The notes beneath the pieces are model-generated. The model was given only the letters and a program-made list of their open reading frames with translations. It ran no database searches and had not been told where the DNA came from. From Myxococcota bacterium (GTDB lineage: Bacteria > Myxococcota_A > Polyangia > HGW-17): a stretch of DNA of 62,889 bases. The stretch's first letter is position 1, and each line of letters opens with the position of its first letter. The translations under genes were made by a program, and so were the position numbers. The DNA lies in contig JAHJMN010000101.1 in the NCBI GenBank assembly GCA_018821305.1, positions 1 through 62,889 of the forward strand. The letters are read 5' to 3'. Shown here piece by piece: positions 14,361-62,889 of the stretch.

Positions 14361-14502
14361 GTTACTGTCCTGAAATACTAAATTTTCAAGTTTTATCCAG
14401 GTTTTTACTCAGGACAGTAACCGCAAGGTTCTGAATATACTGGTAGTGGCCTGGTAGGATTTTTCCGAAAATCCTTCGCGAAGCGAATTACAGGACACGA
14501 AC
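14361..14502 (+). mobile_element. Type A paired-hairpin MITE-like element, copy A1
   Basis: 142 bp, starting GTTACTGTCCTGAAATAC and ending ACAGGACACGAAC. Hairpin 1 is made by GTTACTGTCCTGA and TCAGGACAGTAAC. A linker (CGCAAGGTTCTGAAT) leads to hairpin 2, whose inner part has GGATTTTTCCGAAAATCC and the palindrome CTTCGCGAAG. It is flanked by TGCTTA (left) and TGCTCA (right), a 6-bp duplication with one change. It lies in the divergent gap between the transglycosylase and the histidine-kinase-like gene, where it could affect promoters. Confidence 0.9.
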
Positions 14503-17633: not shown

Positions 17634-17642
17634 TACCTGTTC

Positions 17643-17865
17643 AGAGTAATACGATCGACAGATTATAAGTGTATGGTTCCATCCTTTGTAGTTTTACTTT
17701 GATATTGGATTTTTATGACCTGATCCTGTCCCTGATTTCCTGGCTTCCTGTTTACCTGAAAAAATCAGGGACACAGGTAACCAGTAACAGTAACAGTAAC
17801 AGGAAAATCAGGTCGGCAATTTCGCGCAGAGGAATGCTATAGAAGGCTCATTCCTTTAAATCTTT
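17643..17865 (-). repeat. Family C modular intergenic repeat, copy C1 (inverted)
   Basis: Read on the minus strand this gap contains GGAATGAGCC, then a GCATTCC...GCGCGAAATTGCC mid-segment, CCTG-containing arms (with TTACTG three times in tandem), a CAGG arm, and finally AGGTCATAAAAATCCAATATC, matching the right end of the other copies. A head-like GAGTAATACGA also occurs at the opposite edge (about 17645) on the plus strand. It fills most of the 275-base space between the convergent dksA and flagellin-like genes. Confidence 0.7.
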
Positions 17866-20683: not shown

Positions 20684-20890
20684 CTTTCGGAGTAATACGA
20701 TAGTGACTTGTTTTAAAGAAATTCTTCAGGAGAAAGCCCCTCTAAAGCATTCCGCTGCGCGAAATTGCCTACCTGATTTTCCTGTTGCTGCTACTGATTT
20801 CCTGTTTATCTGAAATTTTTTAACAGGGAGACGGGTAGTCAGGTAAATAGTGACAGGCTCAGAGCGTAACCATTTAATATCAATTAATAA
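20684..20890 (+). repeat. Family C modular intergenic repeat, copy C2
   Basis: Starts at CTTTCGGAGTAATACGATAG. It continues through TTCAGGAGAAAGCCCC, the GCATTCCGCTGCGCGAAA segment, CCTG-type words (CCTGATT, CCTGTTG, CCTGTTT), a short T-rich turn and CAGG/GGGT words, and ends near TTTAATATCAATTAA. Bases 20735-20778 are identical to 43327-43370 in copy C5. It occupies the gap between the MFS gene and the convergent tatB-like gene, where the opposed CCTG/CAGG arms could form a large stem in RNA. Confidence 0.8.
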
Positions 20891-20974
20891 TTAAAAAAAA
20901 TACGTAATTTTTAATTCAATTTCCCAATTTCAATCCTTTTATTCCGAAATTGGTCTATCGTTTCGTATTGCAGA

Positions 20975-33753: not shown

Positions 33754-33956
33754 GCTTTCGGAGTAATACGATTGTGACTCGTTTTAAACAAATGCTTCAG
33801 GAATGAGCCCCCTGTTTTCCCCTTGCATTTTTGCAAAGCAAAAATTGCCTCCCTGTCACTGCTACTGATTTCCCGTTTATCTGAAATTTTTTAACAGGGA
33901 CTCAGATAGTCAGGTAAACAGGTAACAGGGTCAGGTCATAAACATCTAATATCAAT
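33754..33956 (+). repeat. Family C modular intergenic repeat, copy C3
   Basis: Starts GCTTTCGGAGTAATACGATT and ends AACATCTAATATCAATG. The mid-segment is the GCATTTTTGC...GCAAAAATTGCC hairpin type, not the GCATTCCGC type seen in C2 and C5. Bases 33794-33856 are identical to 38990-39052 in copy C4. The right half has CAGG words at 6-8 base spacing (CAGATAGTCAGGTAAACAGG, then TAACAGGGTCAGGTCA). It lies between the starts of a divergent unknown gene and the 3' end of a kinase gene. Confidence 0.85.
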
Positions 33957-34033
33957 GTAAAATTACAAAAACTTGAAGAAAATACTTACTTTTTAGATTT
34001 CGATATTTTTACTCGAAAGCGGTCTAAGGAAAT

Positions 34034-35397: not shown

Positions 35398-35550
35398 GTT
35401 AATGTCCTGTAATACGATCTTTTCAATTTTACACCAAATTTGGACACAGGGCATTAAGAATGAAGACCCTGAAATTATTGTAGTGTTCTGAATAGCATGT
35501 TTTCTTAAACATGCTCAATTTTGATAAAAATTGAATTTCAGGACACGAAC
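35398..35550 (+). mobile_element. Type B paired-hairpin MITE-like element, copy B1
   Basis: 153 bp, starting GTTAATGTCCTGTAATAC and ending TTTCAGGACACGAAC, flanked on both sides by the direct repeat GAAATA. Hairpin 1 arms are GTTAATGTCCTG and CAGGGCATTAAG. The linker is AATGAAGACCCTGAAATTA. Hairpin 2 arms are GTGTTCTGAA and TTTCAGGACAC, with inner stems AGCATGTTT...AAACATGCT and CAATTTT...AAAAATTG. The ends match type A, but the interior is different. Confidence 0.9.
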
Positions 35551-35556
35551 GAAATA

Positions 35557-35619
35557 GTTAATGTCCTGCAATTCGCTTTTCGAAGGAATTCAGTAGAATT
35601 CACGATGGGACATTAATAA
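35557..35619 (+). repeat. Solo hairpin related to type B left end
   Basis: Begins GTTAATGTCCTGCAATTCGC and ends GGGACATTAAT, so it is a single hairpin with type B-like arms and a different loop (containing GAATTC twice). It starts directly after the right GAAATA repeat of element B1. It looks like a one-hairpin derivative or a pre-existing half element next to which B1 inserted. Confidence 0.65.
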
Positions 35620-35825
35620 TATTTTCAAACCTTTGTATTCACTGTCCACTGTAAAACTTTGTCACAAAGATCGAAAACTCGGATTGACAGGCACAGCCTC
35701 ATTTTCAGACATTTATTTACTCGTTGGTTAGAGAAAAACAAGTAATTATATTAGTTATTACAACAATTTAAAAATCTTTTTAATTGATTATTTGAAAAAC
35801 CTACAATGTAGGATAATGTAGACGT

Positions 35826-43139: not shown

Positions 43140-43273
43140 AATAAATCTCCTTTAACTCTTAACATGCTCCGTGACAGACAAATTTTCAACAGAATACTTG
43201 TTCACACAAGTAACCGAATATTCACTTTACGGTGACTTTGAATAAAAATGTATGGCATTCAGGAAGATTATAC

Positions 43274-43478
43274 CGCTTCCTGAGTAATACGATTGTGAGT
43301 TATTCTAAAGAAAATCTTCAGGAAATAGCCCCTCTAAAGCATTCCGCTGCGCGAAATTGCCTACCTGATTGTCCTGTTTCTGCTACTGATCTCCTGGTTG
43401 CCTGATTTTTTTAACAGGGACTCAGGCAGTCAGGCAAACAGGGTCAGGGTCAGGTCATAAACATCTAATATCAATTTT
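43274..43478 (+). repeat. Family C modular intergenic repeat, copy C5
   Basis: Head CGCTTCCTGAGTAATACGAT, mid-segment of the GCATTCCGC type (43327-43370 identical to 20735-20778), CCTG arm, T-run, CAGG arm (CAGGCAGTCAGGCAAACAGG, then GTCAGGGTCAGGTCA) and right end AACATCTAATATCAATTTTA. Just after it AAATTGAATTTCAGAACACG (about 43489-43508) matches a type B element right end, so a decayed B element probably abuts it. Confidence 0.85.
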
Positions 43479-43527
43479 AAGTTCCAAAAAATTGAATTTC
43501 AGAACACGTGGATAAAGTGTGGATATT

Positions 43528-46732: not shown

Positions 46733-46885
46733 GTCCGTGTCCTGTAATTCGCATCGCGAAGGATTTTATGAAAAATCCTGACTAAGACGTATTTCTGAAG
46801 GAAATTGTCAAAGTCGGCAACTGTTTTCGCAGAAAACAGCGAGAGACAGTCCGTTGCTACAGGCATAATAAATTCAAAACCAAGG
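46733..46885 (-). mobile_element. Decayed type A element
   Basis: Reverse-oriented relic. The right end appears as GTCCGTGTCCTGTAATTCGC followed by ATCGCGAAGGATTTTATG and AAAAATCC, matching hairpin 2. After an unrelated stretch, CTACAGGCATAATAAATTC and AAAACC (about 46858-46885) match the linker of type A. The hairpin 1 end is gone. It occupies the upstream side of hisS. Confidence 0.6.
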
Positions 46886-48561: not shown

Positions 48562-49196
48562 CAAACCTTAGAAATAAATTATTTTTTCTGGGATTTATCC
48601 CTGTATTTGCATTACCAGTTGTTTTCTCATCCGTTTCCGGAAGTCATAACTCTAATGTTTACAACACTATATCCGGATTAACCCAGACTACTGACGATTC
48701 TTCTCAAACTGAAAAAATGTCCCCGGAGCAGATGCTTTCTTCTGCGGAATCAATGTCCTCTGGCTGGCCTTCTAAAGAAGCTGCTGTCCAGAAAATGTTT
48801 GAGGAAGCAACTAAAAAGAAAAACATCATGCGCATGAACTGCCTTGAACCCAAAACCAAATCCGTGAAGTTCTGGGTTGCAGAAGGTAATTCCGCATACA
48901 GGGAACTAAAGGCCCTCGATAAATCAAAAATAACGCTGAGTTATCAGAAGGTTAAAGTTATCAATACAAACATAGAAGAACAGGTTTTCGAGGCTTCCCG
49001 GTGCGTAGGCGACGAGAAATTCTCTACGGGAGAAGGTTTCGAAATGAAACTAAGCAAACCTGAATACAACATTTACGACCCGGATCAACCCAACCTTGCT
49101 GTGTTTGATCCGCTTGAGAAGCCTTCGGGTTACCTTCCGTACAATCCGGACTGGTCAGTTGAACTTACCTGGCCTAATGCTTCTCCATATAAATAG
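48558..49196 (+). CDS. Secreted protein of unknown function
   Basis: 212 residues with an N-terminal signal or anchor (FFLGFIPVFALPVVFSS), a Ser/Thr-rich linker, then a domain with two Cys (MNCLEPKTK and SRCVGDEK) and many Tyr/Trp. I do not recognise the family. GGAGG precedes the ATG. The TAG stop is formed by TA of the target duplication and the first G of mobile element A2; without the insertion the same codon position reads TAA, so the protein is unchanged. Confidence 0.72.
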   Translation: MTNLRNKLFFLGFIPVFALPVVFSSVSGSHNSNVYNTISGLTQTTDDSSQTEKMSPEQMLSSAESMSSGWPSKEAAVQKMFEEATKKKNIMRMNCLEPKTKSVKFWVAEGNSAYRELKALDKSKITLSYQKVKVINTNIEEQVFEASRCVGDEKFSTGEGFEMKLSKPEYNIYDPDQPNLAVFDPLEKPSGYLPYNPDWSVELTWPNASPYK

Positions 49197-49336
49197 TTCG
49201 TGTCCTGGAATTCGCTACGCGAAGAAATTTATTTAAATTTCTAACAGGTCACAGTAATAAATTCAACACCTTGCCCTCACTGTCCTGAGTGAAAATCAGG
49301 TGGAAACTTGAAAATTTGGTTTTTCAGGACAGTGAC
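49196..49336 (-). mobile_element. Type A paired-hairpin MITE-like element, copy A2
   Basis: 141 bp, reverse orientation. Starts GTTCGTGTCCTGGAATTCGC and ends CAGGACAGTGAC. Flanked on both sides by TAAATA (49190-49195 and 49337-49342). The mid-part keeps AAATTCAACACCTTGC. It lies between the unknown secreted protein and the outer-membrane barrel of the polysaccharide-export set. Confidence 0.9.
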
Positions 49337-53827: not shown

Positions 53828-53960
53828 AACATAGAAAAAATCCAGACACCAATTTTCAAGAAATGCTTCAGGACTGAGCCCCTGATTATCCTGCTTCTGT
53901 TTCTGATTACCTGTATTCCTGACATTTTTAATAGGGAAACAGAAAAGTCTGAAGTCTATA
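53828..53960 (+). repeat. Family C repeat, diverged copy C6
   Basis: Recognisable parts are ATGCTTCAGGACTGAGCCCC, CCTG words (CCTGATTATCCTGCTTCTG, ATTACCTGTATTCCTG) and a short turn with TTTTTAATAGGGAAACAG. The head and the right end are poorly kept. It fills the gap before the zinc-ribbon/propeller gene. Confidence 0.6.
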
Positions 53961-55786: not shown

Positions 55787-55939
55787 GTTAATGTCCTGTA
55801 ATACCAAGTTTTCAAGTTTAAGCCGAATTTCTGCCCAGGACATTAAGAATGAAGACCTTGAAATTATTGTAGTGTTCTGAATAGCATGTTTTCGTAAACA
55901 TGCTCAATTTTGATAAAAATTGAATTTCAGGACACGAAC
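55787..55939 (+). mobile_element. Type B paired-hairpin MITE-like element, copy B2
   Basis: 153 bp, the same length as B1. Starts GTTAATGTCCTGTAATACC, ends TTTCAGGACACGAAC, flanked on both sides by TAAGTA (55781-55786 and 55940-55945). Hairpin 1 is better kept than in B1 (CAGGACATTAAG arm). The second half (from GAATGAAGACC to the end) is almost identical to B1. Confidence 0.92.
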
Positions 55940-56691: not shown

Positions 56692-56833
56692 GTTACTGTC
56701 CTGAAATACCGAAAACCAAATTTTTCGCCCGATTTTTGCTCAGGACAGTAACCGCAAGGTGTTGAATTTATTACTAGTGGCCTGTTCGGATTTTTAATAA
56801 AATCCTTCGCGAAGCGAATTACAGGACACGAAC
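56692..56833 (+). mobile_element. Type A paired-hairpin MITE-like element, copy A3
   Basis: 142 bp. Hairpin 1 arms GTTACTGTCCTGA (56692-56704) and TCAGGACAGTAAC (56740-56752) are perfect. Hairpin 2 arms are GTGGCCTG (56777-56784) and CAGGACAC (56822-56829), with inner GGATTTT...AAAATCC and CTTCGCGAAG. Flanked by perfect GATTTA duplications (56686-56691 and 56834-56839). The best-preserved reference copy. Confidence 0.93.
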
Positions 56834-56892: not shown

Positions 56893-57519
56893 ATGATAGG
56901 TACAGATAAAAGCAAGCGATTAGCCACCCGGTTGCTGCGAATTATTGAACGAAATAAAGACAGTCACCCGGTAATAAAGACGATTCATGAGCGCACGACC
57001 AATCGTGCCCTTTCATTTCTTGAAGCAGCGGAAAGATGGACAATTGCGAGATCGCTAATGAGAAAAGAGAAGAAGGAAGGGCTTTTAGCCCTGAAGGAAC
57101 TGAAAAAAACTGCAAGGTGCTTTGTACCCGTTCTTTCTGACTTGTATCCACATCTGAAAATAAATATGTCAATTGTAAACAAAAACACTGTTGACGATAT
57201 CTTCACGGAAATAGTTCAGTTAATTTACAATATTGAAAGCGAGACGGGATACGGGGAGTGCGCAACGTCGAAAGAGTCTATCCGAGTGCTTAAATCATGC
57301 CTTGATGCTGCCATTGAGGAATGGAAAGAGTTTGAAAACCTGCAGGCAGAAGTGGCAGAATCATCTGCGGCCCTTAATGCCGAACGAAAAGTATTCAATA
57401 ATGAACTTCGAATCATTCGCCGCACTTTAGCATCAGCTATCGGCCGAACACACCCGGATGTGCGTAGACTAACGCTTAAGTCCTCTACCTCAAAAGACAC
57501 CGAAGACCCGGACGATTAA
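56893..57519 (+). CDS. Helical protein of unknown function
   Basis: 208 residues, charged and all-helical, no signal peptide or TM. The C-terminal third is a probable coiled coil (FENLQAEVAESSAALNAERK). The core contains WTIARSLMRKEKKEGLLALK. GGAG precedes the ATG. I do not recognise it. It is boxed in by mobile elements A3 and A4, with the A-rich stretch upstream. Confidence 0.65.
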   Translation: MIGTDKSKRLATRLLRIIERNKDSHPVIKTIHERTTNRALSFLEAAERWTIARSLMRKEKKEGLLALKELKKTARCFVPVLSDLYPHLKINMSIVNKNTVDDIFTEIVQLIYNIESETGYGECATSKESIRVLKSCLDAAIEEWKEFENLQAEVAESSAALNAERKVFNNELRIIRRTLASAIGRTHPDVRRLTLKSSTSKDTEDPDD

Positions 57520-57655: not shown

Positions 57656-57797
57656 GTTCGTGTCCTGTAATTCGCTTCGCGAAGAAATTTATTAAAATTT
57701 CTAACAGGCCACTACCAGTAAATTCAACACCTTGCGGTTACTGTCCTGAGCAAAAATTGGGCAAAAAATTTGAAAACTTGTATTTCAGGACAGTAAC
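57656..57797 (-). mobile_element. Type A paired-hairpin MITE-like element, copy A4
   Basis: 142 bp, reverse orientation, from GTTCGTGTCCTGTAATTCGC to TCAGGACAGTAAC. Flanked by perfect TAAATA duplications (57650-57655 and 57798-57803), the same target word as copy A2. It ends 30 bases before the start of the large EGF/RCC1 gene and therefore lies in its promoter region. Confidence 0.93.
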
Positions 57798-57827: not shown

Positions 57828-60800
57828 ATGAGAAAAAGTCTATTTATTCTTTTTTCAGTTTTAACTGCAATTGCTTATTCTGGCTGTGATGATGATGATT
57901 CAAATAACTCATCTTCAGTCTGCGAAGGAATTACCTGCAGTGGTCATGGTACTTGTTTTGATGTAGGCGGAAATCCATCATGCGCTTGTGAACTTGGGTA
58001 TCATTCACAGCAGCTCAACTGCCTTTCCGATACAAATCCATGTGAAGGTGTAACCTGCAGTGGTCATGGCACATGTGTGGATATGGGCAATGGCTCTGTT
58101 TCATGTAATTGTGAGACCGGATACCATGCAGAAAGTCTTGATTGTGTTGAAGATGACGCTGTCTGCGAAGGAATTACCTGCTCCGGTCATGGCACCTGCA
58201 GCGATGACGGAAGCGGCAATCCTTTATGTAATTGCGAAACCGGCTATCATGCGGATGGAACCGAATGTATAGCAGATTCCATTGTCTGCGAAGGAATTAC
58301 CTGCTCCGGTCATGGCACGTGCAGTGATGACGGAAGCGGCAACCCAGTATGTAATTGCGAAACCGGCTATCATGCGGATGGAACCGAATGTATACGTGAT
58401 AATTCTGCTCCGCAGATTACCAGTACTCCGGAAACAGACATTTATTCCGGTTCAATGTATACTTACGATATTACCTGCACCGATGCCGACGGAGATACAC
58501 TTACTTTAAATGTTGAATCTCAGGATACTTGCGGGGGCAATATAACAGATAATGGAAACGGTACTGGTTCCTACAGTTTTACACCCACAGCTGCTGGCAA
58601 CTGTAACATGTCTATAGAATGTTGTGACGGATCACTATGTGGTATCCAGGCGACAATCATTAATATTAACAACAATCCTGAATCCTGGGACGTACTTTCT
58701 TCCACCTACAATCATACATGCGGTATCAAAAGTGGAATCCTTTATTGTTGGGGCATGAATTCCAACGGGCAACTTGGAAATAATTCTATTACTGACAGAT
58801 TTTATCCTACGAGAGTTGAAGGTGTTGGTTGGACTCATGTCGCAGCAGGGTATACACATACCTGTGGTATTAAAGGTGGGTATCTTTTCTGCTGGGGAGA
58901 AGGAATTGCTGTTGGTGATGGTACTAATATAGATAAGCTTGTACCAACTCAGGTTGGACTCTCGAATGCGTGGACTTATATAACTTCAGGGGGTTCGTTT
59001 TCCTGTGGTCTAAGAGGTGGAGAACTTTACTGTTGGGGTTATAATTATAGCGGCCAACTTGGAAATGGTACAAACACCGTTAGTTATGCTCCTGTTAAAA
59101 TAGGGACTGACACTGATTGGAGCATCGTGTCTGCTGGGGGTGGTCATACCTGCGGCCTCAGAAATCAGAACCTTTATTGCTGGGGCAATAATTCTTATAA
59201 TCAGTCTGGTCCTGTTTATTCCAATGTCCCTTTACGTGTCGGAATTGAAACTGGCTGGACTACTGTCAGTTCAGGTTATTCTCATACATGCGGCATAATT
59301 CAAGGAAACCTTTTCTGCTGGGGAGCAAATTCTGACTATCAACTTGGGACAGGTGATTCTGTTAATAAGACAAATCCTGTAAAAATAGGAACAGATATTG
59401 ATTGGACTTTTATCAGTTCAGGTAATTCTCATACGTGCGGTATTCGAACAAGCGGTGCTCTATATTGCTGGGGACGTAATTTATATCATCAACTCGGGGA
59501 TGGGGCAGAGTCTATTAATACTCCAGCTCAAATTGGTGTAGATACCTGGGGTGTTGTGACAACTGGAGAAAGGATGTCATGCGGCTTATTAAGCGGAAAT
59601 GACCTGTACTGCTGGGGAAACAATAACTGGGGACAGTGTGGCAGTTCAATTAATGAAACATACAGATGGAATTCACAGGATGGAAAATTGTGGGACATAG
59701 TTAGTCCACAGAAAGTTACTTCAAGTGAAAAAATTTCTCTGTTCAGGCAAAGTAAGGTAGCTTTTAGCGAAAATGACACTACAGTTAATTCCTTTCTTGT
59801 TGTTTTAGGTTCGGAACCTTCTGATGATGTAAATGTTGTACTGGCCCCCGATGTAGACGGAAGAATAGTACTTGATGCTACTCAATTACTCTTTACACCC
59901 GAAAACTGGAGCGCTCCGCAAATTGTTCATTATAGTGCAGATTTAACTAATCTTTATGATGATGATGATGTGAACTTGAACATAGAGTCAGGACCAGCGG
60001 TATCGGCAGATGCTGGGTATAATGAATTGGCAGGTAATTCAATTCCTCTTGAAATAACAGATGATGACACATTTGGCTTTATTTTAACTACTGATAAACG
60101 TATAAACTTGCCTGAAGGTTCAACTGGAGCCTATAAATTTGTACTTACATCAAAACCTTATGGAAATGTGTCAGTTCCTGTAATATCTTCCAATCCTTCA
60201 ATTTTGATACCAGATGTCAATAACATTGTTTTTACTCCTGATAACTGGAATGTCGAGCAGACTGTCAATGTCAGTATTGCTGAAGATAATGTCGAAAATT
60301 TTGATCCGAGAATATTTCGACTGTTTGTTGGTCCTGCAGTTTCAAGCGATCTTCAATATAATAACCTTTCAATGGACGATTTATACATTGAAACCGGTGT
60401 AAGTGGTATTTTTTCTGATATATCATGTGGGGAATATGGATGCTGTGCGATCGATTTTAATCAAAATTTATGGTGCTGGGGAGACAAGGGAAAAAGATTT
60501 GAAACGATAAGTAATGTTTTATCAGTTTCAGTAGGTGGTTCGCTTGGTTGTGTACTAAAAAGCGACCAATCAGTCTGGTGTTGGGGAGGGGGACAGTTAG
60601 GTGATGGCACAACAAACAGTTCCACTGATCCGGTACAAGTTCTGGATATGACAAATGCTGAAAGCATTTCCTGTGGATATTTTCATTGTTGTGCAATTAT
60701 TGACGATGGATCTTTAAAATGCTGGGGCAGGAATTCAAGTGGGCAATTGGGAATTGGAAATACCGGAACTTATTTATCTCCGGTGACTGTTCCTTTAACA

Positions 60801-62423
60801 GGTGTAAATCAGATCAGTTTGGGTTTTTCCCATTCCTGTGCACTTCTCAATGACGAAACAGTAAAATGCTGGGGCTCCAATAGTAGCGGACAAATTGGCG
60901 ATGGTACATCAACCTCAAGGCTCAGTCCTGTTTCTGTAGTTGGCCTCTCTGGAGTATCAGCAATTGCTGTTAATGGAGCAAGCAGTTGTGCGCTGTTAAG
61001 TGATAAAACAGTAAAATGCTGGGGCTCCAATAGTAGCGGACAAGTTGGTGATGGTACGACATATTCAAGAAATACTCCTAATGCGGTAATAAATCTCACT
61101 GAAGTAAGAGAGCTTATACATGGAGGAACCGGTGTCACTGCAATAAAAGAAGATAATACAATATTGAGTTGGGGTAACAATTACCGTGGGTTTCTTGGGG
61201 ACGGGACGACAATAAACAGGAGCAGTCCTGTTGAATCGATCAATTATGGCGCTACTCAGAAAATATCAAGAGGTGATCAAGTCACCTGCATAATAGATGA
61301 TGGTAATAAAGTAAAATGTCTTGGATCAAATGAAGGTGGTAATTTGGGAATAGGAACAAATTATGATAATTTGGATCACCTTTTTCCAGAATTTGTTCAA
61401 TTTGAAACTGAAATACCAGCGCATGAATCAGTAACACTAACAGAAATCCATTGGAACCCATCGGTCGTTGATGATACATATGGGGAATTTATTGAATTAT
61501 ATAATTATACTTCAAAGGACGTGAACTTTTTTAATTGTTCTCTCCTTGTTGGTTCTACTGAATATGAGTTGGAGGATATTGTTATTCCAAGTCTTGGAAC
61601 AGTAGTATTTGCCTCCAACGATAATCCACTGACAAATGGCGGTTTTACTGCTGATGGATTGATTTATGGAGGATTCACGCTGGAAAATTCGAATGCGGAG
61701 ACCATATCTGTTAAGTGCTATGAAATTCTGGAAATGGACAGCATTGATTTTGCAGGAGCTGCCTTGCCTGCTGGTGGTGACGGAATTTCCATGCAACTTG
61801 GAACTGAATTTTATTCAAATAAACAAAATGATTCATCAGCGGCGTGGTGTGATTCAAGTCAATCTTATGGAGATGGGGATCTTGGTACACCAGGAGCAAT
61901 GAATGAGCTTTGTACGAAAAATATTATTTATGGAACCTCCTTTACTGAGCATCCACCCTGGACTACAGACGGACAATGGGCTTCAGGAATGACTAAAAGT
62001 TTTTATACGACTATTCCCGAATGTTACAGCTCAAATACCTGTTTAGGGTCAAATCTTGAATTAAGTTACTGGGGCTCAGATGACTACAGTACTGGTTATG
62101 TCGTTTCCCCACCAATTGACTTAACTGGAGTTACAACTGCACAATTAAATTTCAAAGCATATATTTATGCTGATAATTACAGTGAATATTATGGCTTTCA
62201 GGTTTCCACTAATTCAGGTGCAATGACAAATACATTAACTGAAACAAGTCTTCCTTATACATCTTCATATGGATGGCACTTTTTAAGTGATGATTGGCAT
62301 GACATTACTGTTGATTTGACACCCTGGGCAGGCTCCATTGTTTATTTAAAATTTGGATTAAGAGGTTGGACTAGTTTTGGATCAGGAATATATATTGATG
62401 ACTTATTTGTTACAGGAAATTAA
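57828..62423 (+). CDS. Large surface lipoprotein: EGF-like, RCC1, lamin-tail and C-terminal jelly-roll domains
   Basis: 1531 residues. Lipobox AYSGC followed by DDDD (Cys20). Four EGF-like modules (about 32-190) each have C-EG-TCSGHGTC and CNCETGYH. Next comes a cadherin/Ig-like domain (ADGDTLTLNVES), then a first set of RCC1-like repeats (about 285-610, W-x-x-x-S-x-G-x-x-H-T-CG...LYCWG-x-N-x-x-G-Q-LG). Two Calx-beta-like spacers follow (about 640-850), then a second RCC1 set (about 860-1190, CALL-D-TVKCWGSNSSGQ-GDG). A lamin-tail domain (LTEIHWNPS...GEFIELYN) and a C-terminal MAM/jelly-roll-like domain with a Cys pair (ECYSSNTC) end it. GAGGAGA precedes the ATG. An adhesin-like or matrix role is likely. 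Confidence 0.88.
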   Translation: MRKSLFILFSVLTAIAYSGCDDDDSNNSSSVCEGITCSGHGTCFDVGGNPSCACELGYHSQQLNCLSDTNPCEGVTCSGHGTCVDMGNGSVSCNCETGYHAESLDCVEDDAVCEGITCSGHGTCSDDGSGNPLCNCETGYHADGTECIADSIVCEGITCSGHGTCSDDGSGNPVCNCETGYHADGTECIRDNSAPQITSTPETDIYSGSMYTYDITCTDADGDTLTLNVESQDTCGGNITDNGNGTGSYSFTPTAAGNCNMSIECCDGSLCGIQATIININNNPESWDVLSSTYNHTCGIKSGILYCWGMNSNGQLGNNSITDRFYPTRVEGVGWTHVAAGYTHTCGIKGGYLFCWGEGIAVGDGTNIDKLVPTQVGLSNAWTYITSGGSFSCGLRGGELYCWGYNYSGQLGNGTNTVSYAPVKIGTDTDWSIVSAGGGHTCGLRNQNLYCWGNNSYNQSGPVYSNVPLRVGIETGWTTVSSGYSHTCGIIQGNLFCWGANSDYQLGTGDSVNKTNPVKIGTDIDWTFISSGNSHTCGIRTSGALYCWGRNLYHQLGDGAESINTPAQIGVDTWGVVTTGERMSCGLLSGNDLYCWGNNNWGQCGSSINETYRWNSQDGKLWDIVSPQKVTSSEKISLFRQSKVAFSENDTTVNSFLVVLGSEPSDDVNVVLAPDVDGRIVLDATQLLFTPENWSAPQIVHYSADLTNLYDDDDVNLNIESGPAVSADAGYNELAGNSIPLEITDDDTFGFILTTDKRINLPEGSTGAYKFVLTSKPYGNVSVPVISSNPSILIPDVNNIVFTPDNWNVEQTVNVSIAEDNVENFDPRIFRLFVGPAVSSDLQYNNLSMDDLYIETGVSGIFSDISCGEYGCCAIDFNQNLWCWGDKGKRFETISNVLSVSVGGSLGCVLKSDQSVWCWGGGQLGDGTTNSSTDPVQVLDMTNAESISCGYFHCCAIIDDGSLKCWGRNSSGQLGIGNTGTYLSPVTVPLTGVNQISLGFSHSCALLNDETVKCWGSNSSGQIGDGTSTSRLSPVSVVGLSGVSAIAVNGASSCALLSDKTVKCWGSNSSGQVGDGTTYSRNTPNAVINLTEVRELIHGGTGVTAIKEDNTILSWGNNYRGFLGDGTTINRSSPVESINYGATQKISRGDQVTCIIDDGNKVKCLGSNEGGNLGIGTNYDNLDHLFPEFVQFETEIPAHESVTLTEIHWNPSVVDDTYGEFIELYNYTSKDVNFFNCSLLVGSTEYELEDIVIPSLGTVVFASNDNPLTNGGFTADGLIYGGFTLENSNAETISVKCYEILEMDSIDFAGAALPAGGDGISMQLGTEFYSNKQNDSSAAWCDSSQSYGDGDLGTPGAMNELCTKNIIYGTSFTEHPPWTTDGQWASGMTKSFYTTIPECYSSNTCLGSNLELSYWGSDDYSTGYVVSPPIDLTGVTTAQLNFKAYIYADNYSEYYGFQVSTNSGAMTNTLTETSLPYTSSYGWHFLSDDWHDITVDLTPWAGSIVYLKFGLRGWTSFGSGIYIDDLFVTGN

Positions 62424-62503: not shown

Positions 62504-62645
62504 GTTACTGTCCTGAAATACGGGAAATCAAATTTTTCGCCGATTTTTTGCTCAGGACAGTAACCGCAAGGTGTTGAAAATATTAATAGTGGCCGGATAG
62601 AATTTTTAATAAAATTCTTCGCGAAGCGAATTTCCGGACACGAAC
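62504..62645 (+). mobile_element. Type A paired-hairpin MITE-like element, copy A5
   Basis: 142 bp from GTTACTGTCCTGAAATACG to CCGGACACGAAC. Flanks TATTTA (left) and TATTTG (right), one mismatch. Hairpin 2 has compensating changes: GTGGCCGGAT pairs with TCCGGACAC, and GAATTTTTAATAAAATTC keeps its stem, so pairing is conserved while sequence varies. Confidence 0.92.
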
Positions 62646-62750: not shown

Positions 62751-62889
62751 GTTACTGTCCTGAAATACCGAAAATCAAATTTTTCGCCCGATTTTTGCTC
62801 AGGACAGTAACCGCAAGGTGTTGAATTTATTGTAGTGGCCTGTTAGGATTTTTAATAAAATCCTTCGCGAAGCGAATTACAGGACACGA
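62751..62889 (+). mobile_element. Type A paired-hairpin MITE-like element, copy A6 (cut by window end)
   Basis: Starts GTTACTGTCCTGAAATACC after TAAGTA and runs to ...CAGGACACGA at the last base. By comparison with the other copies it needs about three more bases (ending GAAC), so the right target duplication is outside the window. It is 105 bases downstream of A5 in the same orientation. Confidence 0.9.

Follow-up and report, generated by a model that had tools for sequence, protein, structure and literature searches.

Insertion sequences (ISs) of the ISNCY family (ISDol1-type), such as ISRm17 of Sinorhizobium and a plasmid copy in Marinobacter sp. M3C, are 1.6-1.7 kb long, encode a transposase, and have ends of the form GT[TG]..[CT].TCC[AT]GAAA next to TAnn(n)TA duplications of 6-7 bp, the duplication length of the ISDol1 subgroup of ISfinder. 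Short palindromes are assembled in a modular way in BIME/REPIN mosaics and in pneumococcal BOX elements, which are not known to make target duplications and have other mobilisers. Small, intergenic, A+T-rich elements that form stem-loops and are thought to be mobilised in trans by ISs include Correia/NEMIS, ERIC, Chunjie, QMITE and MITEPye1. Known bacterial MITEs are described as having two terminal repeats and a parent of another family or none known, and their copy numbers can be high, with 711 ERIC copies in Photorhabdus luminescens (PMC10969869). The element family reported here, from a Myxococcota bacterium, is likewise small, intergenic, A+T-rich and stem-loop forming. In contrast to the known MITEs, it forms a separate hairpin at each end, in which an internal arm serves as the partner, and its interiors swap hairpin modules. 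It shares modular palindromes with BIME/REPIN and BOX but, unlike them, has true target duplications and the ends of a DDE IS.

We focused on a window of 62,889 nucleotides. A sequence-only reading had listed six copies of the element in it, and their positions and end sequences were all correct (141-142 bp, the last copy cut). Of these six, the copies starting at 49196, 56692 and 57656 have exact 6-bp flanking repeats, and in those starting at 14361 and 62504 the repeats differ by one base; the contig end truncates the copy at 62751, of which only the left flank is readable. Overlooked in that reading were a 153-bp sister type, one degenerate inverted copy and one fragment. We define the family as type A (141-142 bp) plus type B (153 bp), with the following features in the window.

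14361..14502, + strand: full-length type A MITE, flanks TGCTTA/TGCTCA
35398..35550, + strand: full-length type B MITE (153 bp), flanks GAAATA/GAAATA, one of the overlooked copies
35558..35685, - strand: inverted, degenerate copy of type A that covers model positions 13-140, with one 6-bp duplication between it and the adjoining type B copy
46733..46782, - strand: right-end fragment of a type A copy, with an extra hairpin module next to it at about 46819
49196..49336, - strand: type A MITE with exact duplication TATTTA and compensatory changes in the two sides of the stem (GTCACTG/CAGTGA)
55787..55939, + strand: full-length type B MITE, exact duplication TAAGTA
56692..56833, + strand: type A MITE (the copy given in the sequence-only reading), exact duplication GATTTA
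56692..56752, + strand: left hairpin of the 56692 copy, terminal arm GTTACTGTCCTGA, internal arm TCAGGACAGTAAC
56777..56829, + strand: right branched hairpin of the 56692 copy, outer stem GTGGCCTGT/ACAGGACAC around GGATTTTTAATAAAATCC and TTCGCGAAGCGAA
57544..57556, + strand: lone left-end motif GTTACTGTCCTGA, probably a remnant
57656..57797, - strand: type A MITE, exact duplication TATTTA
62504..62645, + strand: type A MITE, right stem with a paired CCGG variant, flanks TATTTA/TATTTG
62751..62889, + strand: type A MITE, right end lost at the contig end, left flank TAAGTA

Two open reading frames (ORFs) lie among these copies. The first (208 aa, 56893-57519) has no Pfam match and is located between two inverted type A copies; a composite transposon around it was considered and rejected, as the outer flanks differ (GATTTA versus TAAATA, + strand reading). 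The second (1531 aa, 57828-62423), with MITEs on both sides, begins like a signal or lipoprotein sequence and contains repeats of the EGF-like motif CxGHGxC.

To profile abundance, we allowed no more than one mismatch and matched the ends against all 216 contigs (5.22 Mb) of the genome. The left end gave 610 matches versus 7 for a reversed-pattern control and the right end 541 versus 25, which excludes a chance origin of the matches. Copies were analysed in detail in a sample of 1.09 Mb, consisting of 60 stretches and the window. These were picked by end matches and copy density is thus biased there, so the genome total was scaled from the whole-genome end counts, giving an estimated 650-700 copies. 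The sample itself holds 178 matches (98 full length), about 2% of its sequence. The element is short (141-153 bp), multicopy and without coding capacity, and it is strongly intergenic: 172 of the 178 copies are outside ORFs of at least 110 aa, which make up 87% of the sample, and six are mainly inside them versus about 154 expected at random. No element DNA was detected in one same-genus genome and 57 other relatives searched, and no viral contig searched with two MITE patterns gave a match.

The copies carry target duplications. Left and right flanks match each other unusually often at exactly six positions (identity 0.73-0.82, versus 0.29-0.49 outside), and identical 6-bp flanks were found at 43 of the 93 distinct full-length copies with both flanks present, compared with 4.7 from shuffled flanks; when one mismatch is allowed, the counts are 60 of 93 and 23.4. 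The flanks of 24 of the 93 differ at three or more of the six bases, and these may be old copies, products of recombination or copies with misplaced ends. The exact duplications comprise 20 different sequences and prefer TAnnTA (TAATTA, TATTTA, TAAATA). An apparent 2-bp duplication at L090:6156 more plausibly represents a 6-bp copy with changes.

Empty sites were found as well. The copy at L100:12819-12960 sits in another repeat family, and uninterrupted relatives of that repeat (L043, L067) hold a single TAATTA at the site. The gap that holds the 49196 copy has a syntenic counterpart some 140 bp smaller in the same-genus genome, which is supportive of insertion, though the intergenic alignment is too poor to place the junction. 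Duplications across the sample, empty sites in paralogous repeats and absence from the same-genus genome thus bear out the earlier proposal of a MITE with 6-bp duplications. A general lack of duplications, or sites that are always occupied, would have spoken against it, and neither pattern was seen.

The interrupted repeat belongs to a second abundant family, an insertion target for the MITE, with 120 matches in 1.09 Mb. It is typically about 245 bp long, hairpin-rich and probably TA-flanked, with ends TAGACCGCTT...AAGCGGTCTA, and was also seen at L043:460-594. Its positions in the window are as follows.

17640-17839: second repeat family
20747-20956: second repeat family
33843-34025: second repeat family
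43271-43499: second repeat family
53874-53949: second repeat family

Neighbouring copies have the same orientation in 19 of 22 pairs (19 versus 3, p = 0.0009) and are mostly one 6-bp unit apart. Head-to-tail arrays of this kind, with one 6-bp spacer shared by adjacent copies, would also be produced if the elements were small circles integrated site-specifically by a tyrosine recombinase at a dif-like or attC-like site of two 12-bp arms and a 6-bp spacer (CAGGACACGAAC-NNNNNN-GTTACTGTCCTG). We consider this very improbable: a recombinase would need arms and a matching overlap, whereas the exact duplications are of 20 kinds, the empty targets (for example ATTAATAATTAAAAAG) are without arms, and an ISNCY DDE element with the same ends accounts for the spacer as a duplication. 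Head-to-head neighbours would be unstable palindromes of up to 290 bp, so their loss alone can cause the orientation bias. The arrays can reflect TAnnTA targeting beside existing ends together with loss of inverted neighbours, which form long palindromes, and they are no proof of site-specific recombination.

The transposase, left as unknown by the sequence-only reading, is very probably that of an ISNCY-family IS in the same genome that has both ends in common with the MITE. Only one gene in the assembly was found to match DDE_Tnp_1 (PF01609) over the cut-off (C216:87-1439), and a left MITE end is located 184 bp past its stop codon. The gene encodes a 450-aa transposase, the single DDE protein of the IS, whose best model is NCBIfam NF033593 ISNCY (294 bits, next model 122); the score is below the curated equivalog cut-off of 325, and the protein is therefore a divergent ISNCY member. 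Its catalytic residues D150 and D355 are invariant in eight aligned proteins, and E406 is present in seven of the eight. The DNA upstream of the gene occurs at seven places, mostly contig ends, five of which read out the other terminus (TAnnTA-GTTCGTGTCCTGAAATT...), and the 3' end of the IS occurs at four places. The IS is multicopy and was collapsed by the assembler, and its length of 1,679 bp was pieced from 5' and 3' junctions on different contigs, no copy being assembled end to end. Being broken at contig ends, it was missed by a search of the sample for an autonomous copy as paired ends 600-6000 bp apart, which returned none. Both kinds of junction have the flanks TATTTA and TAACTA.

MITE and IS are identical over 12-17 bp at each end. 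The 5' terminus of the IS, GTTCGTGTCCTGAAATT, is the same as the right end of type B over 17 bp and as that of type A over 12, and its 3' terminus, GTTACTGTCCTGAAATA, is the same as the left end of type A over 17 bp. At least four IS junctions are one duplication away from a MITE end. The sampled IS 5' ends are almost identical, which suggests that the IS was recently active. The MITE linker shows a short resemblance to the IS leader (GTTGAAATTATTA), oriented oppositely to the end that they share; we treated this resemblance as chance. Collapsed ISNCY copies were observed at contig ends (L200-L204, L208-L211), some with runs of TAAC repeats as flanks (C154, C193), and a transposase C-terminus remnant at L103:1490-1600 (C116; 34 residues, 88% identical) represents a decayed IS copy.

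With two subterminal hairpins, an intergenic placement and hundreds of copies, the element also resembles a REP/REPIN-like repeat moved in single-stranded form by a Y1 (HUH) transposase that recognises hairpins, and the genome has three Y1_Tnp genes. IS200/IS605-type movement gives no target duplication, however, and the copies have sharp 6-bp duplications and the ends of a DDE IS of the same genome; moreover, element strand is not correlated with GC skew (r = -0.03, p = 0.68), which speaks against insertion tied to the lagging strand. We give movement by a Y1 enzyme almost no credence. The Y1-type transposase genes (on C8, C84 and C131; L205-L207) are possibly the source of other hairpin repeats.

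A single-sequence search of the genome contig collection with the transposase returned nothing, and an alignment (profile) scan of named genomes revealed 148 relatives, the majority of them from Pseudomonadota and Desulfobacterota-type MAGs. The DDE_Tnp_1 transposases of ISNCY relatives are 24-31% identical to the resident one. Ends and duplications were readable automatically in 32 of the 80 relatives retrieved. The repeats are 6 bp long in 23 of these and 7 bp in 9, in most cases of the form TAnn(n)TA (typically TAATTA, TAGCTA, TAGACTA), and the ends are GT[TG]..[CT].TCC (for example GTGCCCATCCAGAAAC or GTTTCCGTCCATAAAC). One of the 32 (L148) is off pattern, probably reflecting ends that were falsely paired. 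The pattern also holds for the Marinobacter and ISRm17 copies. The automatic search did not resolve the ends in Desulfosarcina widdelii. We take the parent's subgroup to be ISDol1 of ISfinder.

Each end of the MITE had been proposed to pair with an internal copy of itself. This holds exactly on the left, where GTTACTGTCCTGA and TCAGGACAGTAAC pair at 13 of 13 positions with the arms 35 nt apart. The right internal arm is shorter, imperfect and not a full copy of the end: GTGGCCTGT pairs with ACAGGACAC save for one G.A, the GTT terminus is missing from it, and two smaller hairpins are enclosed by the stem. The description of the four-arm design as unusual was apt, as the hairpins are specific to the MITE, and the parent IS and nearly all relatives with readable ends are without internal arms. 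In the parent, no inverted end copy was found within 250 bp of either end (at most three mismatches) save a poor match at 142, and near matches among the relatives were limited to two Halomonas-group copies, at 218-219 bp.

RNAalifold returned no structure on type A, and the named stems were thus counted individually. In the type A stems (36 pairs, 81 copies), 90.4% of the pairs are standard, and there are 85 double-change cells versus 23 in shuffles, a control that leaves shared descent uncorrected, and at most 26 when the stems were slid. Compensated changes include T-A becoming G-C at 92/132 and G-C becoming A-T at 98/113. The inner hairpins of types A and B have unrelated sequences in the same places, and the fold is common to both. 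A two-hairpin module of about 65 bp is found in the left stem of several copies and in the right stem of others (L066, L100), two copies have a third hairpin in the linker, and A/B mosaic copies exist. The hairpin module, CTGTTTTCnnnGAAAACAG plus GATTTCCnnnGGAAAT, was seen at L066:6082-6287, L042:16203-16447, L080:484-690 and, in the window, at about 46819.

Fold stability exceeds that of shuffles on both strands (z -3 to -7). This and the compensated changes could indicate that the hairpins are structured RNA, such as processing or terminator signals in transcripts, and that this role is why the element is retained; prokaryotic MITEs usually have stable stem-loops in their transcripts (PMC10969869). 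Such a role nevertheless appears improbable. An Rfam search of the window gave no match at gathering score, the two strands fold about equally, and between co-oriented genes the element shows no preferred direction (++ 49, -- 44). Its absence from one same-genus genome argues against a conserved function, and its mobility is shown independently. Folding of both strands without strand preference better fits DNA than one functional RNA.

Types A and B are very probably MITEs of the resident ISNCY-family (ISDol1-type) IS, mobilised by its transposase. By homology, the transposase made by the IS would act in trans, binding the ends common to IS and MITE and cutting both. The cut ends would then be joined to a TAnnTA target with a 6-bp stagger, whose repair would leave the 6-bp duplications. 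The MITE consists of 12-17 bp of each IS end around a non-IS interior of hairpins, which build one stem-loop on the left and a branched one on the right. In both, the IS end provides the terminal arm, and the internal arm is a partner seen only in the MITE. The internal arms most likely arose by template switching at the ends, and pairing was most likely kept by recurrent palindrome correction, by selection for the folded element, or by both. Template-switch correction of quasi-palindromes yields paired change without selection, so the covariation indicates that pairing is maintained, whether by selection or by template-switch repair.

The hairpins may have a function in the element. More specifically, the internal arms could allow the MITE ends to work as hairpins, folded in cruciform or single-stranded form, and so to be transposed more, or to withstand host control better, by far than the parent IS. 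We regard this as a rather unlikely possibility; functional folded ends would explain why there are hundreds of MITEs and about seven copies of the IS, why stem changes are compensated, and why unrelated sequences converge on one fold.

In class the element is ordinary, a MITE of a DDE insertion sequence with its parent identified, and its architecture and abundance are unusual. A literature search of partial coverage returned no paper on an ISNCY-derived MITE. A very abundant bacterial MITE is here tied to an ISNCY-family parent in the same genome, a pair without counterpart in the literature searched, and it provides a clean case of secondary structure in a non-autonomous element that is missing in its parent. 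With hundreds of copies, compensated changes and swappable modules, the family would allow a direct test of whether folded ends aid a DDE transposon or are self-correcting palindromes.
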